Part shown: piece after piece, positions 5,243-39,466 of the stretch
Layout of the letters: every line of letters begins with the position of its first letter
Numbering within the stretch: position 1 is the first letter of the stretch
From: a virus
Reading direction: 5' to 3' (one strand)
DNA: 45,335 nucleotides
IMG/VR virus record: IMGVR_UViG_3300032287_004317
Coordinates: 1 to 45,335 of that record
Program-made: the position numbers and the translations under genes
The notes under the pieces: model-generated
Database searches by the model: none
Seen by the model: the letters and a program-made list of their open reading frames with translations, nothing else
What the model was told of the DNA's origin: nothing

Positions 5243-6229
5243 ATGATAAAACTTGTAAATCTTTTAAAAGAAATAACTGAGAATGGAAACTTTTTTCTTT
5301 ATCACAGAACTAAAATACCAACAACAACAAAAATCTTAACATCCCCCAATAAATCCCTTAACCCAAATGATGGAAGGGCTGGAGTTGGAACATATTTTGT
5401 ATATGGCAACCCAAAAGAAATTAGCTCAACAATGGACGTTTATGGAGGAGCTTCTTTAAGATATAGTATTCCCGAATCATCACTTTCTAATTTTTTAGTT
5501 TTTGATAAAAATTTACAATCCAGATCATTGGATCAACAACTTACCCCATTAAAATCAGAAATAGGTGAAGATAGATTTAATGAAGTTATTAATTCATATG
5601 ATAAAGGGACTCTAAATCAATTAGAATTTATAGAAGAATTAATCGAACAAGGTATTAATCTTGCAGATTATTTTGATGGAGCATTATATGGAGCTAAATC
5701 TCAATCAACTGCGGGATCTAGTTTGGGATTTGGTACTGCTAAAACCGCTGGAACTAGTAGAACTGCAGTAGTATATAATCAAAATCTATTAACTTTTCAA
5801 GGAGTATCTACAGATGGAGTTAATTATAAAATACCTTCTGAATCAACTAATAAAATTAAATCACCTGAAATGGCATTAACCCAAGGAGAAATCCCAGATG
5901 GGTATACTATTAAAAAAACAACAGTTGATCTCAAGGGAAAAAACATTTCTACCCTCCCAAATGATTTAGAAATAATTGGAAGTTTAGATTTAAGAAATCC
6001 TTCTATTGAAAACTTACCATCTAATTTAAAAGTTAAAAATACTTTATATATTTTACCTTCTCAAATCACTTCATTTTTATCAACTAAACCTCAAATAAAA
6101 AGATTATGGGTTGATTCAATTACCTCTGATATTATTAAAACCTTAAACCAGGTAGGACTTACATATGTATCTCAACCATGGGATAGACCTGAAGAAAATT
6201 CTTATAGTGGAACATTTAAAGTAAAATAA
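5243..6229 (+). CDS. Putative virion protein with ADP-ribosyltransferase-like region
   Basis: The protein has 328 residues from the chosen ATG; an upstream frame extension overlaps the clamp-loader gene and lacks a good start context. The N-terminus MIKLVNLLKEITEN resembles a capsid-targeting sequence with ITE as a cleavage site. Residues 18-70 (LYHRT, then GRAGVGTYFVYG, then YGG with SLRYSIP) recall the strand pattern of ADP-ribosyltransferase folds, but I cannot place a catalytic Glu. The C-terminal 110 residues contain leucine-rich-repeat-like spacing (ISTLPNDL, IENLPSNL). If it is an injected ART it would parallel T4 Alt; this is tentative. Confidence 0.75.
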   Translation: MIKLVNLLKEITENGNFFLYHRTKIPTTTKILTSPNKSLNPNDGRAGVGTYFVYGNPKEISSTMDVYGGASLRYSIPESSLSNFLVFDKNLQSRSLDQQLTPLKSEIGEDRFNEVINSYDKGTLNQLEFIEELIEQGINLADYFDGALYGAKSQSTAGSSLGFGTAKTAGTSRTAVVYNQNLLTFQGVSTDGVNYKIPSESTNKIKSPEMALTQGEIPDGYTIKKTTVDLKGKNISTLPNDLEIIGSLDLRNPSIENLPSNLKVKNTLYILPSQITSFLSTKPQIKRLWVDSITSDIIKTLNQVGLTYVSQPWDRPEENSYSGTFKVK

Positions 6230-28268: not shown

Positions 28269-28712
28269 ATGTTAAGTAAGATGTTTATAGAATACGAGGA
28301 TGGGTTGAAGGTAGAGAAAGTAGTTCATAATAGTGAGACTTCATTCAAAACCAAAAACATAAAACACGCCAGTTGCCAACCATTCAAATATAAAGTAGAT
28401 AAACACCCATACTTGTGTGTAGCTATAGTTAGATATTCGGATAAAACCATGATTATGCCAGCAGGTATACCATGCCACCCGAAAACAACATTAGAGGATA
28501 TTATTGAAATAGATAATACCCCAGTTGAGGTAAAGGAAAAACCCGTTGAGAAAAAGAAATGGATGTTTGAATCATCTAGTTCAGAAGGATTTTATCAAGT
28601 AACTGAAAATATGGGAAAACTAAAATGCAATTGTCCTGGAACATGGAGAGCAAAAGATAGACGTTGCAAACATATCAAAGAAGTTGAACTAGAACTTGGA
28701 ATAGTAAAATAA
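28269..28712 (+). CDS. SWIM zinc-finger protein
   Basis: The protein has 147 residues. The C-terminal CNCPGTWRAKDRRCKH near 121-136 is a C-x-C-x(n)-C-x-H SWIM finger, a small zinc module that binds DNA or protein. The N-terminal 90 residues are beta-rich (FIEYEDGLKVEKVVH). The start has the AAAGGTTATG context after its own promoter. It may act in DNA processing or regulation. Confidence 0.8.
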   Translation: MLSKMFIEYEDGLKVEKVVHNSETSFKTKNIKHASCQPFKYKVDKHPYLCVAIVRYSDKTMIMPAGIPCHPKTTLEDIIEIDNTPVEVKEKPVEKKKWMFESSSSEGFYQVTENMGKLKCNCPGTWRAKDRRCKHIKEVELELGIVK

Positions 28713-28736
28713 AGTTATTAAATTTAAAATAAAAAA

Positions 28737-28835
28737 ATGAGCAAAGTAAGCGCAAAACAAAGAGTAGAACAGCTACAAGGATGGTTATCATTTGTAAAAG
28801 CAGAGGCAATTAGAAAAGGTAAAAAACGAAAATAA
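28737..28835 (+). CDS. Small basic peptide
   Basis: A 32-residue peptide, MSKVSAKQRVEQLQGWLSF followed by a Lys/Arg tail (KGKKRK). It lies between the SWIM gene and a tRNA. It is short, but A-rich leader and codon use match neighbours, and a sequence of similar plan (MRKSAKQQVEEIEMA) occurs at 42780. Confidence 0.5.
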   Translation: MSKVSAKQRVEQLQGWLSFVKAEAIRKGKKRK

Positions 28836-28841
28836 CATTAT

Positions 28842-28913
28842 GTTCCGTTAGTGAAGTGGTTAACACGTCGCTCTTTCTAAGCGAAGGCACGAGTTCGAAT
28901 CTCGTACGGAATA
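28842..28913 (+). tRNA. tRNA-Glu (anticodon UUC) by structure
   Basis: Acceptor GTTCCGT/ACGGAAT, D stem GTG/CAC, anticodon stem TCGCT/AGCGA around loop CTTTCTA, a 4-nt variable region, and T stem ACGAG/CTCGT with loop TTCGAAT. The anticodon at the standard position is TTC (Glu). Position 37 is T, which is unusual; reading TCT (Arg) would need a shifted stem that does not pair. CCA is not encoded. Confidence 0.82.
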
Positions 28914-29054
28914 CGTGGGAAAGACTCATCCCGAAATCAGAACAAGGGTCAAAAACACGCGAACCTAAGTACCTGTACAGCGGTGAGTAACGGGCTAAGT
29001 TATATACAATTCCTCGGAGCTGGGAGTAGAATGCTTAGGAGCGTGTTTTTTTAT

Positions 29055-29127
29055 TGTCCTATGGTGTAATTGGCAACACGTCTGGTTTTGGTCCAGAAGA
29101 GTCGAGGTTCGAACCCTTGTGGGACAA
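29055..29127 (+). tRNA. tRNA-Gln (anticodon UUG)
   Basis: Acceptor TGTCCTA/TGGGACA (one wobble), anticodon stem TCTGG/CCAGA with loop TTTTGGT (anticodon TTG), and T arm GAGG/CCCT with TTCGAAC. CCA is not encoded. The flanks continue the acceptor helix (TTG/CAA, then CGTGTTTTTT with AAAAAACACG), so it seems embedded in a longer transcript. Confidence 0.9.
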
Positions 29128-29309
29128 CGCAAAAAACACGTGACGTAGTTTCCTTACCTCAATTGAGATGGGTTTTACAAGTCACATATTTATTTATGAT
29201 AGTACCTACCACGCTTCTGGACTGGGGTGTCCCCGATCGAGCGTACCAGGGTAGGTCTTTTACCTCCACCGTTAGCAATAACGGAACCCTCTAGTTCTCC
29301 GGTTCTAGA

Positions 29310-29345
29310 GTTGCTCTTTACCTTATGGTTGCTCTTTACCTTATG
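29310..29345 (+). repeat. Tandem 18-bp direct repeat inside RNA region
   Basis: GTTGCTCTTTACCTTATG occurs twice head to tail (29310-29327 and 29328-29345) with no mismatch. It lies between two predicted hairpins in non-coding sequence. Confidence 0.9.
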
Positions 29346-29549
29346 GTCTGGAGTCTACAAAGGTTTTTTACATTGAACCCGTAATCAATGTGACACTCCC
29401 CCCTGCGTTGAGATAGACGTAGGCCAAGAACCATCGGGCATACCGTTAGATCTGCTCACTCAGATGGTCTTTCTTGATATTGGGAAGTTGGATTGCTTTA
29501 TAGGTGCAAACGCGTTGCCTTTATGAACAACCATATAACCAACTATCAC

Positions 29550-29596
29550 CCCCTAGAAAGTGCCAAGGACGCTTGGAAAACTACTAGGGGTTTTTT
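29550..29596 (+). terminator. Terminator closing the structured RNA region
   Basis: CCCCTAG (29550-29556) pairs with CTAGGGG (29584-29590), enclosing an inner stem CCAAG/CTTGG with loop GACG (29563-29576), followed by T6. The inner stem carries the TTG of the next promoter. Confidence 0.75.
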
Positions 29597-29601
29597 ATAT
29601 T
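29573..29601 (+). promoter_or_regulatory. Promoter module nested in a terminator
   Basis: TTG (29573-29575) is exactly 20 bp before TATATT (29596-29601). The spacer ends TTTTT/A instead of TTTCG. The ATG at 29620 follows after 18 nt. Confidence 0.55.
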
Positions 29602-29619
29602 AAACATAAAATTAAAGCT

Positions 29620-29790
29620 ATGGAAATAATTATTGGAATACTTTTAGCATTTTGTTTACTTTTATTAGAAAAAGTATTGGAAATGAAAGATCGAATTAAA
29701 AATTTAGAGAAAATTGTTAAATCAATAAACGATGATTTGAATATGGTAGCTCAAACTCAAAAAAATACCAAACAAATACTCAAGGGGTAA
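29620..29790 (+). CDS. Small membrane-anchored coiled-coil protein
   Basis: The protein has 56 residues. MEIIIGILLAFCLLLLEKVL is a single N-terminal membrane helix. Residues 22-56 form a charged coiled coil (MKDRIKNLEKIVKSINDDL). The layout resembles phage spanin, Rz-like or superinfection-exclusion peptides, but nothing specific supports these. An upstream in-frame extension runs through the terminator and is rejected. Confidence 0.68.
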   Translation: MEIIIGILLAFCLLLLEKVLEMKDRIKNLEKIVKSINDDLNMVAQTQKNTKQILKG

Positions 29791-29840
29791 CGGTAAATAG
29801 TAAATAACCCGTCAAAAACTTCTACGTTATTTTTAATTTA

Positions 29841-29857
29841 AATATTTATAAATAAAA
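29841..29857 (+). promoter_or_regulatory. ATATTTATAAATA motif, possible late promoter
   Basis: AATATTTATAAATAAAA contains TATAAATA, identical to the T4 late -10 element, 21 nt before the start of the secreted-protein gene. This is the best copy of the late-type motif. Confidence 0.45.
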
Positions 29858-29862
29858 CCAAT

Positions 29863-32148
29863 ATGAAAAAGTTATTAGCCTTATTTTATTTTCTATTAGT
29901 TGTAGGAAATGCGTTTGCCCAAGTATCAACATACACATTTAGTGAAACAACAGGGACATATACTGTAATCACAGGAGGTACCCAATTAGTAACTACAACA
30001 GCCGGAGCTATATCATATGATACTGATGGTAGTTATTTCACTTTAGCGGCAGGAAATCGATTTACATTTAATAGTACCTTAATAACTTCAGTCAATATGA
30101 CAGCTGATGGTGCTCTTTGGTTAAACCCAGGAGCCACAACAACAGGAAATGGAACAACTGGAGCCATTTCATCAACAGCAACTGCAGCAGGTGTTATTTG
30201 TGCTATGAATATGGATTTACGAAGTACAGCAATTGCTGGTCAAGTATATGAACGTAGATGGCAAGATGATGGAACTGAAGTTATATTTCAATGGCAAAAT
30301 GTAGCTCGTTATTCAACAACTTCTCCATTTGTATTAAATGAAAGATTTTCATTCCAAATCAGAATAAATAAATCAACAGGTGTTGTACGTGTTGTTTATG
30401 GTAATATGACCACTATTGTTAACAGCACAACATACCAACCAATGGTTGGATTACGTGGATCAGTAAACACAGATTACAATAACAGGCGATTAACAGCAGC
30501 AATACCAGATGCTACTCCAAATTGGGGTGCACCAAATGGAACAACAACAGGAACATCCAATGCTCATACCGTTAGATTTACTTCGGTTGCATCATGTTTT
30601 CCTGTATCCGGTTTAACTTTTGTATGGACCCCTCCATCATGTTCTCCTCCAACTAGCTTAACTAAAACATATCCATCTCCAACATCTGCGAATATGAGTT
30701 GGACAGCCTCTATTTCCAACCCATCAAGTGGATATGAATGGGAAATGAGAACTTCAGGTGCTGGTGGTTCAGGTGCAACAGGTTTAACTGCTAGTGGAAC
30801 AACTGCAGCCGGTGTGGTAACAGCAACAACAAGTGCTCTTACCCAAAATACAGCATATATTTTATATGTAAGAAGTAATTGTGGTGGAGGTGTTTTTAGC
30901 GCTTGGGCAGCCTCAACTAGCACTATTACACCATCACCCCCTCCCTCAAATGATTATTGTTCTGGGGCAACAAATGTTCCTTGTGGTACTAGCTCATTAG
31001 CAGGTACAACAGTAGGTACAGTAATTGAAACTGCACCGTTTTCATTATCATCTAGTTATGGTGTTTGGTATACCTTTACAGGTGATGGTCAACAAACAAC
31101 TATTACATCAACAACTACATTTGATCATAGTTTATTATTTATGTCCGGATCTTGTAGTGGATTAAGTTATATAACTAACATTGATAATTCATTTTCTACT
31201 GAAACATATACATTTGTTACTGCAGTAGGGGTCCAGTATTATATTTATGTTGCTCATTATTTAACAAGTAGTACTTCAACAGGAACCTTTACTATATCTA
31301 GAACATGTACTGCTCCTCCTGTACCCCCAATTAACGACAATCCATCAGGGGCAATTGCATTAACCATATCAAATACAGTTACATATGCAACTTATACAAA
31401 TGTTAATGCTACTGCTACTACAACAGAATCCACGCCTAGTTGTGCTGCATATGTTGGTGAAGATGTTTGGTTTAAAGTTATAGTCCCACAGTATATGAAT
31501 TCATTGGATTTTGATACACAAATAGGTACAATTACAGATGCAGGTATGGCTATTTATAGAGGTACTCCTGGAGCATTAGTTGAAATACAATGTGACGATG
31601 ATAGTTCCCCAAATGGAGCAATGTCATTTATCTCTAGAACAGATTTCATTGAATACGAAACAATTTATATTCGTATTTGGGAATATAATGGCGGAACAGT
31701 AGGTACATTTGGAATTTCAGTTACTTCACCTCAACCACTACCAGTTGAATTACTTTATTTTGAAGGAACAGCCCACTCAACATATAACAATTTAAAATGG
31801 GCTACAGCTTCAGAACAAAACTCAAATTATTTTGGTATTGAAAGATCAATAGATGGAGAAATATGGAGAGAAGTAGCTACAAAACAATCAGCAGGCAATT
31901 CAACAGAAAAAATAAACTACTACCATTCAGATAATATAGATCAATTTACAATTCACTACTATAGATTAGTTCAATATGATATTGATGGTAAATTTGAAAT
32001 ATTTGACCCAATAGCATTAGATAATAGAGTTAAAGAAAAAACTATTGTCAAATATGTTAATCTACTAGGTCAAGAAGTAGGCTCTGAATATAAAGGTGTT
32101 GTTTTTGAAATATACGAGGATAGTACCTCAAAGAAAATCATTAGATAA
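29863..32148 (+). CDS. Secreted modular protein with T9SS-like C-terminal signal
   Basis: The protein has 761 residues. The signal peptide MKKLLALFYFLLVVGNAFA (1-19) precedes Gln, a typical cut site. A Thr/Ser-rich beta domain (20-240) is followed by a fibronectin III-like domain (about 250-360). Two Asn/Asp-Cys domains (NDYCSGATNVPC and NDNPSGAIAL starts) follow. The C-terminal 135 residues begin LPVELLYFEG and continue with LKWATASEQNSNYFGIERS and YYRLVQYDIDG, then VKYVNLLGQEV and KKIIR. That order is standard in Bacteroidota proteins exported by type IX secretion and anchored at the surface. It is probably acquired from a host and displayed on the infected cell. Confidence 0.85.
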   Translation: MKKLLALFYFLLVVGNAFAQVSTYTFSETTGTYTVITGGTQLVTTTAGAISYDTDGSYFTLAAGNRFTFNSTLITSVNMTADGALWLNPGATTTGNGTTGAISSTATAAGVICAMNMDLRSTAIAGQVYERRWQDDGTEVIFQWQNVARYSTTSPFVLNERFSFQIRINKSTGVVRVVYGNMTTIVNSTTYQPMVGLRGSVNTDYNNRRLTAAIPDATPNWGAPNGTTTGTSNAHTVRFTSVASCFPVSGLTFVWTPPSCSPPTSLTKTYPSPTSANMSWTASISNPSSGYEWEMRTSGAGGSGATGLTASGTTAAGVVTATTSALTQNTAYILYVRSNCGGGVFSAWAASTSTITPSPPPSNDYCSGATNVPCGTSSLAGTTVGTVIETAPFSLSSSYGVWYTFTGDGQQTTITSTTTFDHSLLFMSGSCSGLSYITNIDNSFSTETYTFVTAVGVQYYIYVAHYLTSSTSTGTFTISRTCTAPPVPPINDNPSGAIALTISNTVTYATYTNVNATATTTESTPSCAAYVGEDVWFKVIVPQYMNSLDFDTQIGTITDAGMAIYRGTPGALVEIQCDDDSSPNGAMSFISRTDFIEYETIYIRIWEYNGGTVGTFGISVTSPQPLPVELLYFEGTAHSTYNNLKWATASEQNSNYFGIERSIDGEIWREVATKQSAGNSTEKINYYHSDNIDQFTIHYYRLVQYDIDGKFEIFDPIALDNRVKEKTIVKYVNLLGQEVGSEYKGVVFEIYEDSTSKKIIR

Positions 32149-36883: not shown

Positions 36884-37636
36884 ATGAAGTACAAATTTAT
36901 TCCAGTCGATAATAACATCGACAAAGCGATAGCATTCGCTAACACATTAGATGCAAATAACATCAAAAATGTTCAAAAAATTAAACAAAAACCATTCTAC
37001 ATTCCAACATTAGATGCAGTTGAAATGTTACAAAATGATGGTTGGTTAATTAAAGGAGTAGCTGAACAAAGAGCAGGTAGTCGTAAAATTAAATCAAACT
37101 ACGTTCAGATGCAACATCCTGATTTTAGTATATTAGATAAAAAAGGACAAACTGAAGCGTTAGCTTCAATTACGATATCAAATAGTACTAGTGGTAATAA
37201 TCCGTTAAGTTTACATTTAGGAGCATTTCGTTTAGTATGTTCAAACGGAGCAGTAATGAAAGATACTGCAGCTGAATCTAATATTAAACATACTGAAATA
37301 AACTATAAACAATTACCTGAATTAATTGCAAAATTGAATAATAAAGCAATGATTTTATCTGATGTAATTAGCAATATGAAAAATATACAACTATCTTCAG
37401 ATGATATAAAGAAATTTGCATTTGAAGCAGCTCGTTTACGTTTTGATGATTTAACAGATGTAAATGTTAATAGTGTATTTAAAGTAAACAGAATCGAAGA
37501 TGAAAGCAACGATTTATGGACGGTATTCAACAGAATACAAGAAAACTTAACTGCTGATATATCTAACTTTAGCAATGATATTAAATTAAATCAACAGTTA
37601 TTTAGTTTAGCAGATCAATATGCGTTAGCAGTTTAA
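36884..37636 (+). CDS. DUF932-like protein, copy 1
   Basis: The protein has 250 residues. FYIPTLDAVEMLQNDGW, LSLHLGAFRLVCSNGAVM near 108-125, MKNIQLSSDDIKKFAFEA near 165-182, and NDLWTVFNRIQENL near 210-223 follow the layout of DUF932 phage/plasmid proteins, whose function is unsettled. It shares all these blocks with the protein at 38346, so the two are paralogues. It stands downstream of a RadA-like gene, a frequent recombination context. Confidence 0.8.
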   Translation: MKYKFIPVDNNIDKAIAFANTLDANNIKNVQKIKQKPFYIPTLDAVEMLQNDGWLIKGVAEQRAGSRKIKSNYVQMQHPDFSILDKKGQTEALASITISNSTSGNNPLSLHLGAFRLVCSNGAVMKDTAAESNIKHTEINYKQLPELIAKLNNKAMILSDVISNMKNIQLSSDDIKKFAFEAARLRFDDLTDVNVNSVFKVNRIEDESNDLWTVFNRIQENLTADISNFSNDIKLNQQLFSLADQYALAV

Positions 37637-38345: not shown

Positions 38346-39155
38346 ATGTTAGATTTAAGCAAAGATGGTTTTTTAAAAACAAGTGAGATTAAAGAAAGAG
38401 CAAAATCAATTTTCACTGAAACAGCAGGTCCAAGTGTATCAAGTAAGTTTACACACATCCCAACATTTAAAGTGATTGAGGATATGGCTCAATTAGGATG
38501 GAGTGTAGTTGATGCTAAAGAAGTTAAAGCACGAGCTAAAAATAGTGTTGGTTTCCAAAAACACTTAGTTGTATTCCGTAATCCAGATGTAGTAATTAAT
38601 GGAGCAGATGGTGATACAGTATTTCCACAAATCCTATTGACAAATTCCAACGATGGTAAAAATGCATTTACATTTACTGCTGGTTTGTTCCGTTTAGTGT
38701 GTGAAAATGGTTTAGTTATTTCAACTGAGCAATTCAACGATGTTAAAATGCGTCACATGGGTTATACATTTGAAGAGTTGCAACTACAAATTAGAGCAAT
38801 GGTTGAGCAGTTGCCTTTAACAGTTGAATCAATGAATAAAATGAAATCGATTCAATTGAGTGGAGAGCAAGCAAAAGAATTAGCTACAAAAGCATTGACA
38901 ACTCGTTTCACTGAAGAACAAATTCAATCAGTTAAAATTGATTTAGATTTGTTACTTGAACCAACACGACCTGAAGATAAAGGTAGTGATTTATGGTCAG
39001 TATTCAATGTGATTCAAGAGAAAATATTAGAAGGTGATTTCCAATACATGTCAGGTACTAGAATTAGAAAAGCACGTAAAGTGAAGAATTTCAAACAAGA
39101 CCTAGAAATTAATCAAAAACTATTTGCAATGGCAGCTGAATTTATAGCTGCCTAA
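38346..39155 (+). CDS. DUF932-like protein, copy 2
   Basis: The protein has 269 residues. It shares with the protein at 36884 the blocks FKVIEDMAQLGWSVV, FTAGLFRLVCENGLV, MKSIQLSGEQAKELATKAL, SDLWSVFNVIQEKI and LEINQKLFAMA. It has an extra basic patch near the C-terminus (GTRIRKARKVKNFKQ). The two probably arose by duplication and then diverged. It has its own promoter, and a structured RNA region follows it. Confidence 0.8.
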   Translation: MLDLSKDGFLKTSEIKERAKSIFTETAGPSVSSKFTHIPTFKVIEDMAQLGWSVVDAKEVKARAKNSVGFQKHLVVFRNPDVVINGADGDTVFPQILLTNSNDGKNAFTFTAGLFRLVCENGLVISTEQFNDVKMRHMGYTFEELQLQIRAMVEQLPLTVESMNKMKSIQLSGEQAKELATKALTTRFTEEQIQSVKIDLDLLLEPTRPEDKGSDLWSVFNVIQEKILEGDFQYMSGTRIRKARKVKNFKQDLEINQKLFAMAAEFIAA

Positions 39156-39310
39156 GCAAAAAACAAACATAACCTGTACCCTTGAGAAACTCGTATTTAA
39201 AGATAAGCAGGTTAGTTCCGAAATAAAAGGGTAGGAGAATAAGGAACAACGATCATCGCAAGTAGAACCGACGGCCGCGTAAAGGTGCCGCTACTAGAAA
39301 ATTCGGGGTT

Positions 39311-39393
39311 AGTCAGGTGGTGTAATGAAACACGCTCCTAGTTTAATATGGTGTATACCAGGTGTAGTGCAGGTTCGAGTCCTGCCCTGACTA
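39311..39393 (+). tRNA. tRNA-like element with an expanded anticodon loop
   Basis: Acceptor AGTCAGG/CCTGACT (7 bp, perfect), D stem GTGT/ACAC, T stem GCAGG/CCTGC with loop TTCGAGT, and a 4-nt variable region. The anticodon stem CTCCT/AGGTG has one mismatch and closes a 20-nt loop instead of 7 nt. No standard anticodon can be read. The loop holds GGTGTATACC, which can fold on itself. It may be a tRNA pseudogene, a tRNA with an insert, or a tRNA mimic. Confidence 0.6.
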
Positions 39394-39420
39394 CAAAACG
39401 CTTCATAACCGTTTTCTTTT

Positions 39421-39456
39421 CCTACCGTGTGGCTACAAACACACGGTAGGTTTTTT
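39421..39456 (+). terminator. Strong intrinsic terminator
   Basis: Perfect 11-bp stem CCTACCGTGTG/CACACGGTAGG (39421-39431, 39440-39450), an 8-nt loop and T6. The best terminator in the window. Confidence 0.95.
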
Positions 39457-39466
39457 AAAAAAGGAC

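Follow-up and report, generated by a model that had tools for sequence, protein, structure and literature searches.

In mitochondrial transcripts, tRNAs punctuate the RNA and act as processing marks, and the tRNA cluster of phage T4 includes the stable RNAs C and D, small non-tRNA RNAs of unknown role for which we know of neither a pseudoknot fold nor an attachment to tRNA-like elements. The transcripts MALAT1 and MEN beta carry an expression and nuclear retention element (ENE) and an A-tract next to tRNA-like RNAs. Among phages, GOLLD and ROOL are large structured RNAs whose function is unknown; they are often found near tRNA islands, and GOLLD linkers sometimes contain tRNAs (PMC12286853). 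Here we analyze a virus record from IMG/VR, 45,335 bases long (the window, by which we mean this whole stretch), in which a structured block at 28914-29599 lies among tRNAs. A preliminary description had tentatively interpreted the block as a large phage RNA, possibly GOLLD, ROOL or a new class, carrying a tRNA-Gln on an extended stem of a single fold. Comparison with relatives establishes that the block consists instead of separate folded RNAs, at least four of them, lined up among tRNAs. We lean toward reading it as part of a polycistronic array whose tRNAs, together with tRNA-like elements that can no longer decode, would be processing marks for the release of new structured RNAs.

Division of the block into separate RNAs

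The general features first ascribed to the block are confirmed. It holds no plausible gene between or after the tRNAs, the listed open reading frames (ORFs) being of 44-76 aa and mostly overlapping the tRNAs, and it is richer in GC (0.452) than the window (0.310) or its flanks (0.26-0.31). Many local hairpins are present, including the GNRA hairpin CCGUUA-GCAA-UAACGG (29269-29284) and a terminal helix with T6 (29548-29596), and the minimum free energy (MFE) of the block is -218 kcal/mol, versus -193 +/- 7 in 20 shuffles (z -3.5).

Similar RNAs are present in more than 100 other viral contigs. A 15-base pattern from within 28979-28994 retrieved 37 viral stretches, and in most of its real matches conservation, at 80-98% identity, was limited to the first 100-150 nt of the block. 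Further sets of loci were collected with patterns from other parts of the block and from the neighboring gene at 28269-28712. Since retrieval relied on exact patterns, conservation at the patterned letters is biased, and many of the relative loci (designated here by L numbers) are contig fragments. Profile searches with each part of the block resolved four units, P, A, B and C-F, which are given here with the tRNAs between them and the domains of C-F.

28842-28913/28914, + strand: tRNA-Glu(UUC), a real tRNA without encoded CCA
28914-28950, + strand: module P, a compact H-type pseudoknot (sequence, relatives)
28951-29052, + strand: module A, a pseudoknotted RNA of about 100 nt (relatives, covariation)
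29055-29127/8, + strand: tRNA-Gln(UUG), a real tRNA with an ordinary cloverleaf
29128-29185, + strand: module B, an CGCAAAAAAC tract and a hairpin, at zero spacing from tRNA-Gln (relatives, covariation)
29202-29597, + strand: module C-F, a multi-helix RNA of about 395 nt with its own terminator-like hairpin at the end (relatives, covariation)
29204-29257, + strand: domain C of C-F, with ACCUACC/GGUAGGU, ACGCU/AGCGU and UGGGG/CCCCG (helices 1-3)
29265-29400, + strand: domain D of C-F, a string of hairpins at 29269-29284 (GCAA loop), 29289-29310 and 29369-29391 (alignment)
29401-29470, + strand: domain E of C-F (alignment, helices)
29471-29597, + strand: domain F of C-F, with the final hairpin CCCCCUAG (29548-29555) / CUAGGGG (29584-29590) and U6 (helices 10-14)

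Among non-redundant loci, B occurs singly in 24, A in 13 and C-F in 9, counts to which loci at contig ends contribute. The joint orders are B-CF (12 loci), B-A (4), A-B-CF (3), A-CF (3), A-B (2), A-A (1) and CF-B (1), and in two loci, L054 and L045, B and C are separated by a gene of some 115 codons. Modules that occur alone, in varied order and with an intervening ORF point to an assembly of independent RNAs, as the preliminary description had itself allowed in a caveat. The covariation that it proposed to seek in homologous phages is strong within modules A, B and C-F: the scores of A (70 sequences), B (39) and C-F (26) were reached by no shuffle. The shuffle controls ignore shared ancestry, for which the slid controls used below correct in part. 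What survives of the proposed large phage RNA is a large amount of conserved and structured non-coding RNA beside tRNAs, supported by covariation, and what does not is its unity.

Module A and the apparent clamp around tRNA-Gln

Module A has two outer helices, P0 (28951-28960/29041-29050) and P1 (28964-28969/29034-29039), around a core of P2 (28972-28975/28991-28994), P3 (28978-28981/29019-29022), P5 (28985-28987/29013-29015) and P4 (29011-29012/29024-29025). Across 70 distinct sequences, 91.9% of cells are paired, versus 74.7% in shuffles and at most 46.5% in slid controls, and both-side changes number 344, versus 127 in shuffles. They occur in all eight pairs of P0 (for example, AAACACG/CGUGUUU versus ACUAUUAG/CUAAUAGU; 70 copies). 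One position of P3 has three pair types (AU 45, CG 15, UA 9), GAG/CUC in P5 is replaced by ACG/CGU in about 21 sequences, and P2, which crosses P3 and P5, shows a both-side change at one position only. The near-invariance of this pseudoknotted core suggests a specific partner. A covariance model of the module scores the window copy at 108 bits and finds no match in the sequences searched of Flavobacterium phage immuto (150 kb) and Cellulophaga phage phi17:2 (50 kb); a broad pattern matches at least 120 stretches, and the family is therefore larger than our sample.

The flanks of tRNA-Gln are, as first reported, exact complements over 10 bp, CGTGTTTTTT (29043-29052) pairing with AAAAAACACG (29131-29140). 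The U-rich arm can pair just as well with AAAAACACGC at 28951-28960, the partner that the MFE structure uses. Covariation of the 3' arm of P0 with module A's own 5' arm rules out the clamp helix around the tRNA, and some P0 variants, of the ACTATTAG/CTAATAGT types, have a 3' arm that is unable to pair with the A-tract of B. Because P0 covaries within A, and because the A-tract of B is invariant even where A is missing, the perfect clamp of the window is, on the evidence of the alignments, a by-product of two separately conserved segments and does not argue for a joint fold. The proposal of an extended stem of one larger fold fails on the same grounds and on the separability of the modules.

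The identification with GOLLD or ROOL fares no better. A cmscan of 28700-29900 gave no match to either model at E <= 10, none was found in 9 relatives at gathering score, and none in 12 relative loci at E <= 0.5; in Rfam 15 as a whole, no family except tRNA (and tRNA-Sec on one relative) reached gathering score in the window or the scanned relatives. Below-gathering matches such as Plastid-ycf2 and mascRNA were dropped, their positions being those of the tRNAs. GOLLD and ROOL are excluded at the sensitivity of Rfam, and what the block has in common with them is the setting alone, a structured RNA encoded by a phage beside tRNAs. GOLLD is one RNA, often above 800 nt, with a conserved 3' region, whereas here we find several RNAs of 37-395 nt, and the tRNA is a boundary, not an insert.

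It is accordingly very improbable that the block is one ornate RNA of about 690 nt, akin to GOLLD or ROOL, with tRNA-Gln on an extended stem. The complementary flanks in the single sequence and the folding energy of the block speak for such an RNA, as does the recurrence of the order A, tRNA or tRNA-like element, B, C-F in L052 and of A, tRNA-like element, B in L054 and L049. Against it stand the variation in module order and spacing, the solitary occurrence of most copies, the internal covariation of P0 and the lack of an Rfam match to either family.

tRNAs and tRNA-like elements as putative processing marks

The modules are set directly against tRNAs or against elements that resemble them. 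In 39 of 42 loci, versus 0 of 208 control positions, the T arm of such an element lies in exact register 5' of B, so that B starts with the base next to the discriminator; a 7/7 acceptor partner is found in 37 of the 42, a partner search that alone succeeds at 35 of 208 control positions. In a wider set of 49 B copies, 44 have zero spacing from the tRNA or tRNA-like element 5' of them and 25 are followed by another. Module A lies within 10 nt of the 3' end of one in 43 of 104 cases and is followed by one in 57 of 105. Module P starts directly after the discriminator base of tRNA-Glu, and in relatives it likewise adjoins a tRNA-like element and lies 5' of module A.

The block itself contains no tRNA-like element; one is found in a second array of the window, and others in relatives.

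39165-39310, + strand: module G, directly 5' of the tRNA-like element, with relatives in 15 loci
39311-39392, + strand: tRNA-like element with an AGUCAGG acceptor, a T arm and an aberrant anticodon arm, called as tRNA-???
39393-39457, + strand: structured tail with a terminator-like hairpin, CTACCGTGTG..CACACGGTAGG-T6, at zero spacing from the tRNA-like element (relatives)

We collected 82 distinct elements of this kind, 68-168 nt long. Their acceptor is AGUCAGG/CCUGACU, they have a T arm, and a D arm is present in most. The collection pattern fixes the acceptor and T loop, a constraint of which the test anchored on B is free: among elements found only by their position 5' of B, the 3' strand is here too most often CCUGACU (19/42). 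A canonical anticodon hairpin (5 bp, 7 nt, U33) is found in 6 of the 82. ARAGORN detects 23 and misses 59, and many score about 30-46 bits with the Rfam tRNA model. On their 3' side lie B, P, A, other conserved modules or a start codon; where the element precedes an ORF, the ATG tends to be 15-30 nt away. The annotated tRNA-Cys of Flavobacterium phage immuto (L181, 20246-20331) also resembles a tRNA-like element.

We infer from this arrangement a polycistronic phage transcript on which ordinary tRNAs, tRNA-like elements and independent structured RNAs would lie together. Each tRNA or tRNA-like element would be a cleavage site for host RNase P and for the enzymes that process tRNA 3' ends, and P, A, B and C-F would come away as stable RNAs whose ends these cuts define. 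Retention of the acceptor and T arm, which these enzymes read, together with loss of the part read by the ribosome and zero spacing to the neighboring RNA, fits processing marks, and we hold this to be somewhat more probable than its opposite. With a little less conviction, we entertain the wider proposal that a large phage group, some of it with contigs of up to 296 kb, carries long arrays in which marks that cannot decode, with mostly AGUCAGG acceptors, release at least ten new structured RNA classes.

The likeness to mitochondrial tRNA punctuation lies in tRNAs placed directly against other RNAs on one strand; the differences are that this is a phage, that many of the marks have no decoding arm and that cleavage here is putative. 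Small non-tRNA RNAs among phage tRNAs also recall RNAs C and D of T4, a parallel in setting. As in tmRNA, a tRNA-like half with acceptor and T arm is joined to further RNA where the anticodon arm would be, but ARAGORN makes no tmRNA call and Rfam yields only below-gathering fragments of 15-17 nt.

Several points weigh against the elements being processing marks. Modules A and C-F may function in cis, as parts of an mRNA, and the letter conservation of acceptor and T loop is partly a product of the search pattern. No recognizable T arm lies directly 5' of five B copies or of roughly half the copies of A. An ORF start follows the tRNA-like element in 22 of 84 cases, which is no excess over the 29% at random positions.

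In a different reading, the modules are cis-acting mRNA elements (leaders, stabilizers of the 3' untranslated region, terminators or riboswitch-like aptamers) and not free RNAs. C-F has a terminator-like end and lies 3' of an ORF in L045, L047 and L054; 29 of 61 C-F copies and 12 of 105 A copies have an ORF start no more than 70 nt downstream; and the invariant pseudoknotted core of A, with its free outer stem, appears aptamer-like. We nonetheless consider this reading unlikely, if a serious competitor, since the next feature is a tRNA or tRNA-like element and not a gene for 57 of 105 copies of A and 25 of 49 of B, and no consistent downstream gene was seen for either. Side by side with these counts we note that ATGACACCATTATTG..., a possible small-ORF start, occurs within about 20 nt 3' of A in L008, L002, L009, L005, L017 and L003, where A is a possible mRNA leader.

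Phage tRNA clusters are known to counter tRNA-cutting defenses, and the tRNA-like elements with their attached RNAs might be decoys or inhibitors of host defenses that target tRNAs, kept for the tRNA-like half. Loss of the anticodon arm with retention of the acceptor and T arm would suit such a role, as would that general property of the clusters. Such a role would leave unexplained why several unrelated folded modules lie at zero spacing and why ordinary tRNAs carry these modules as well, and we judge the explanation improbable. Still more doubtful, to the point that we give it hardly any weight, is that these are selfish units like short interspersed elements, a tRNA-derived head with an unrelated body, spreading among phages. 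Fused units of a tRNA-like element with B or P do recur in many places, and tandem copies of A occur in L013, L023 and L031; but strong compensatory change indicates selection on the RNA fold, the body is kept while heads differ, and a reverse transcriptase was not noticed nearby, although no search was made for one. The tandem A modules (L013:2590-2854, L023, L031) have differing core types and in L013 lie 87 nt apart.

If tRNAs and tRNA-like elements do act as processing marks, what is annotated in phages as a "tRNA" or "pseudo-tRNA" may in many cases be such a mark and not an adaptor, and the attachment of modules to tRNAs and their non-decoding look-alikes would offer a testable route by which phages make defined small RNAs. 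The RNAs described here as new are modules A, B and C-F, three classes that covariation supports and that have no relative in Rfam, along with seven or more other candidate modules. A structured block near phage tRNAs should be divided by comparison with relatives before it is taken for a single giant RNA.

Folds of modules B, P and C-F

Module B is closed by the stem GTGAC (29140-29144) / GTCAC (29181-29185), and its hairpin contains a U-rich internal loop, AGUUU / GUUUUA, with CC/GG inner helices. Stem 1 shows both-side change in 5 of 5 pairs (39 sequences), and the CGCAAAAAAC tract 5' of it is identical in all 39 aligned copies, with or without A nearby. The search pattern contained the U-tracts and not the A-tract, and copies obtained from other queries (L020, L039, L047, L049, L052) agree. 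In its U-rich internal loop between two helices, together with an A-tract, module B resembles an ENE, and as in MALAT1 and MEN beta a tRNA-like element is adjacent. The order is reversed, with the tRNA-like element and the A-tract both 5' of the hairpin, the setting is a phage, and a triple helix of U.A-U triples is here putative. By this analogy, module B would close as a triple-helix-like cap at its own end or that of the tRNA, which suggests a role in the protection of RNA ends.

The helices of module P are GGGA (28917-28920) / UCCC (28929-28932) and GACUC (28923-28927) / GGGUC (28946-28950); GAY/RUC varies in the few relatives' sequences, with pairing preserved.

The 14 helices of C-F comprise 72 pairs, for which pairing across the 26 sequences is 96.6%, slid versions reaching at most 42%; 38 pairs have both-side changes, versus 24 in shuffles. 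RNAalifold alone gave 48 pairs, 29 of them with compensatory change; the pairs beyond these 48 were added by hand from the alignment. The domains are themselves separable: domain D is missing in L040, L118, L146 and L169 and domain C in other copies, while C, or D-E, occurs with other terminators in L109 and L019, domain C standing alone in L109. In L041, domain E has the look of domain C repeated, a hint that a single folding unit was duplicated within C-F. The pattern for domain C gave 56 matches, many by chance, of which 24 loci pass the profile search.

Within domain D of the window, an exact 18-nt tandem duplication, TTGCTCTTTACCTTATGG, occupies 29311-29346 and is a single copy in relatives such as L054. 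A boxA-like GAGTTCTTTGACATAT lies just 3' of C-F in L045 (7690-7740), L047, L107 and L121, where it may serve antitermination through the array; boxA-like GTTCTTTGACATAT was not found in the window.

Host, distribution and further modules

In the window, the gene order GroEL, PD-(D/E)XK nuclease, glycosyltransferases, HNH endonuclease and DUF932 matches a stretch of Flavobacterium phage immuto, which is also the best match for the GroEL (58.9% identity) and the nuclease (40.1%). Given this gene order and these matches, the host is probably a flavobacterium. Two DUF932 genes lie near each other, at 36884-37636 and 38346-39155. In the cultured phage immuto, a structured stretch between tRNA-Glu and tRNA-Gln (L181:21172-21250) carries a GGACTGGGGTGTCCCCGGTCG hairpin almost identical to that of domain C.

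A blastn search of INPHARED with 1.2 kb matched 108 records, and among the 20 matches listed all were at the tRNAs; no isolate carrying A, B or C-F was found. A pattern match in the isolate contig L216 was attributed to chance, as was a single match in bacterial genomes, apparently in coding sequence, and the resemblance of GGTGAGTAACGGG to a stretch of 16S rRNA was dropped for the same reason. Literature searches, to which bioRxiv as such was out of reach, returned nothing describing these RNAs.

Relatives also contain conserved RNA modules between tRNAs that are absent from the window block. Two lie in L040, one of 160 nt (5852-6011) with relatives in 35 loci and one of 131 nt (5647-5775) with relatives in 18. 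Smaller modules of 53-81 nt, each present in 5-7 loci, lie 3' of tRNA-like elements in L004, L020, L039 and L143.
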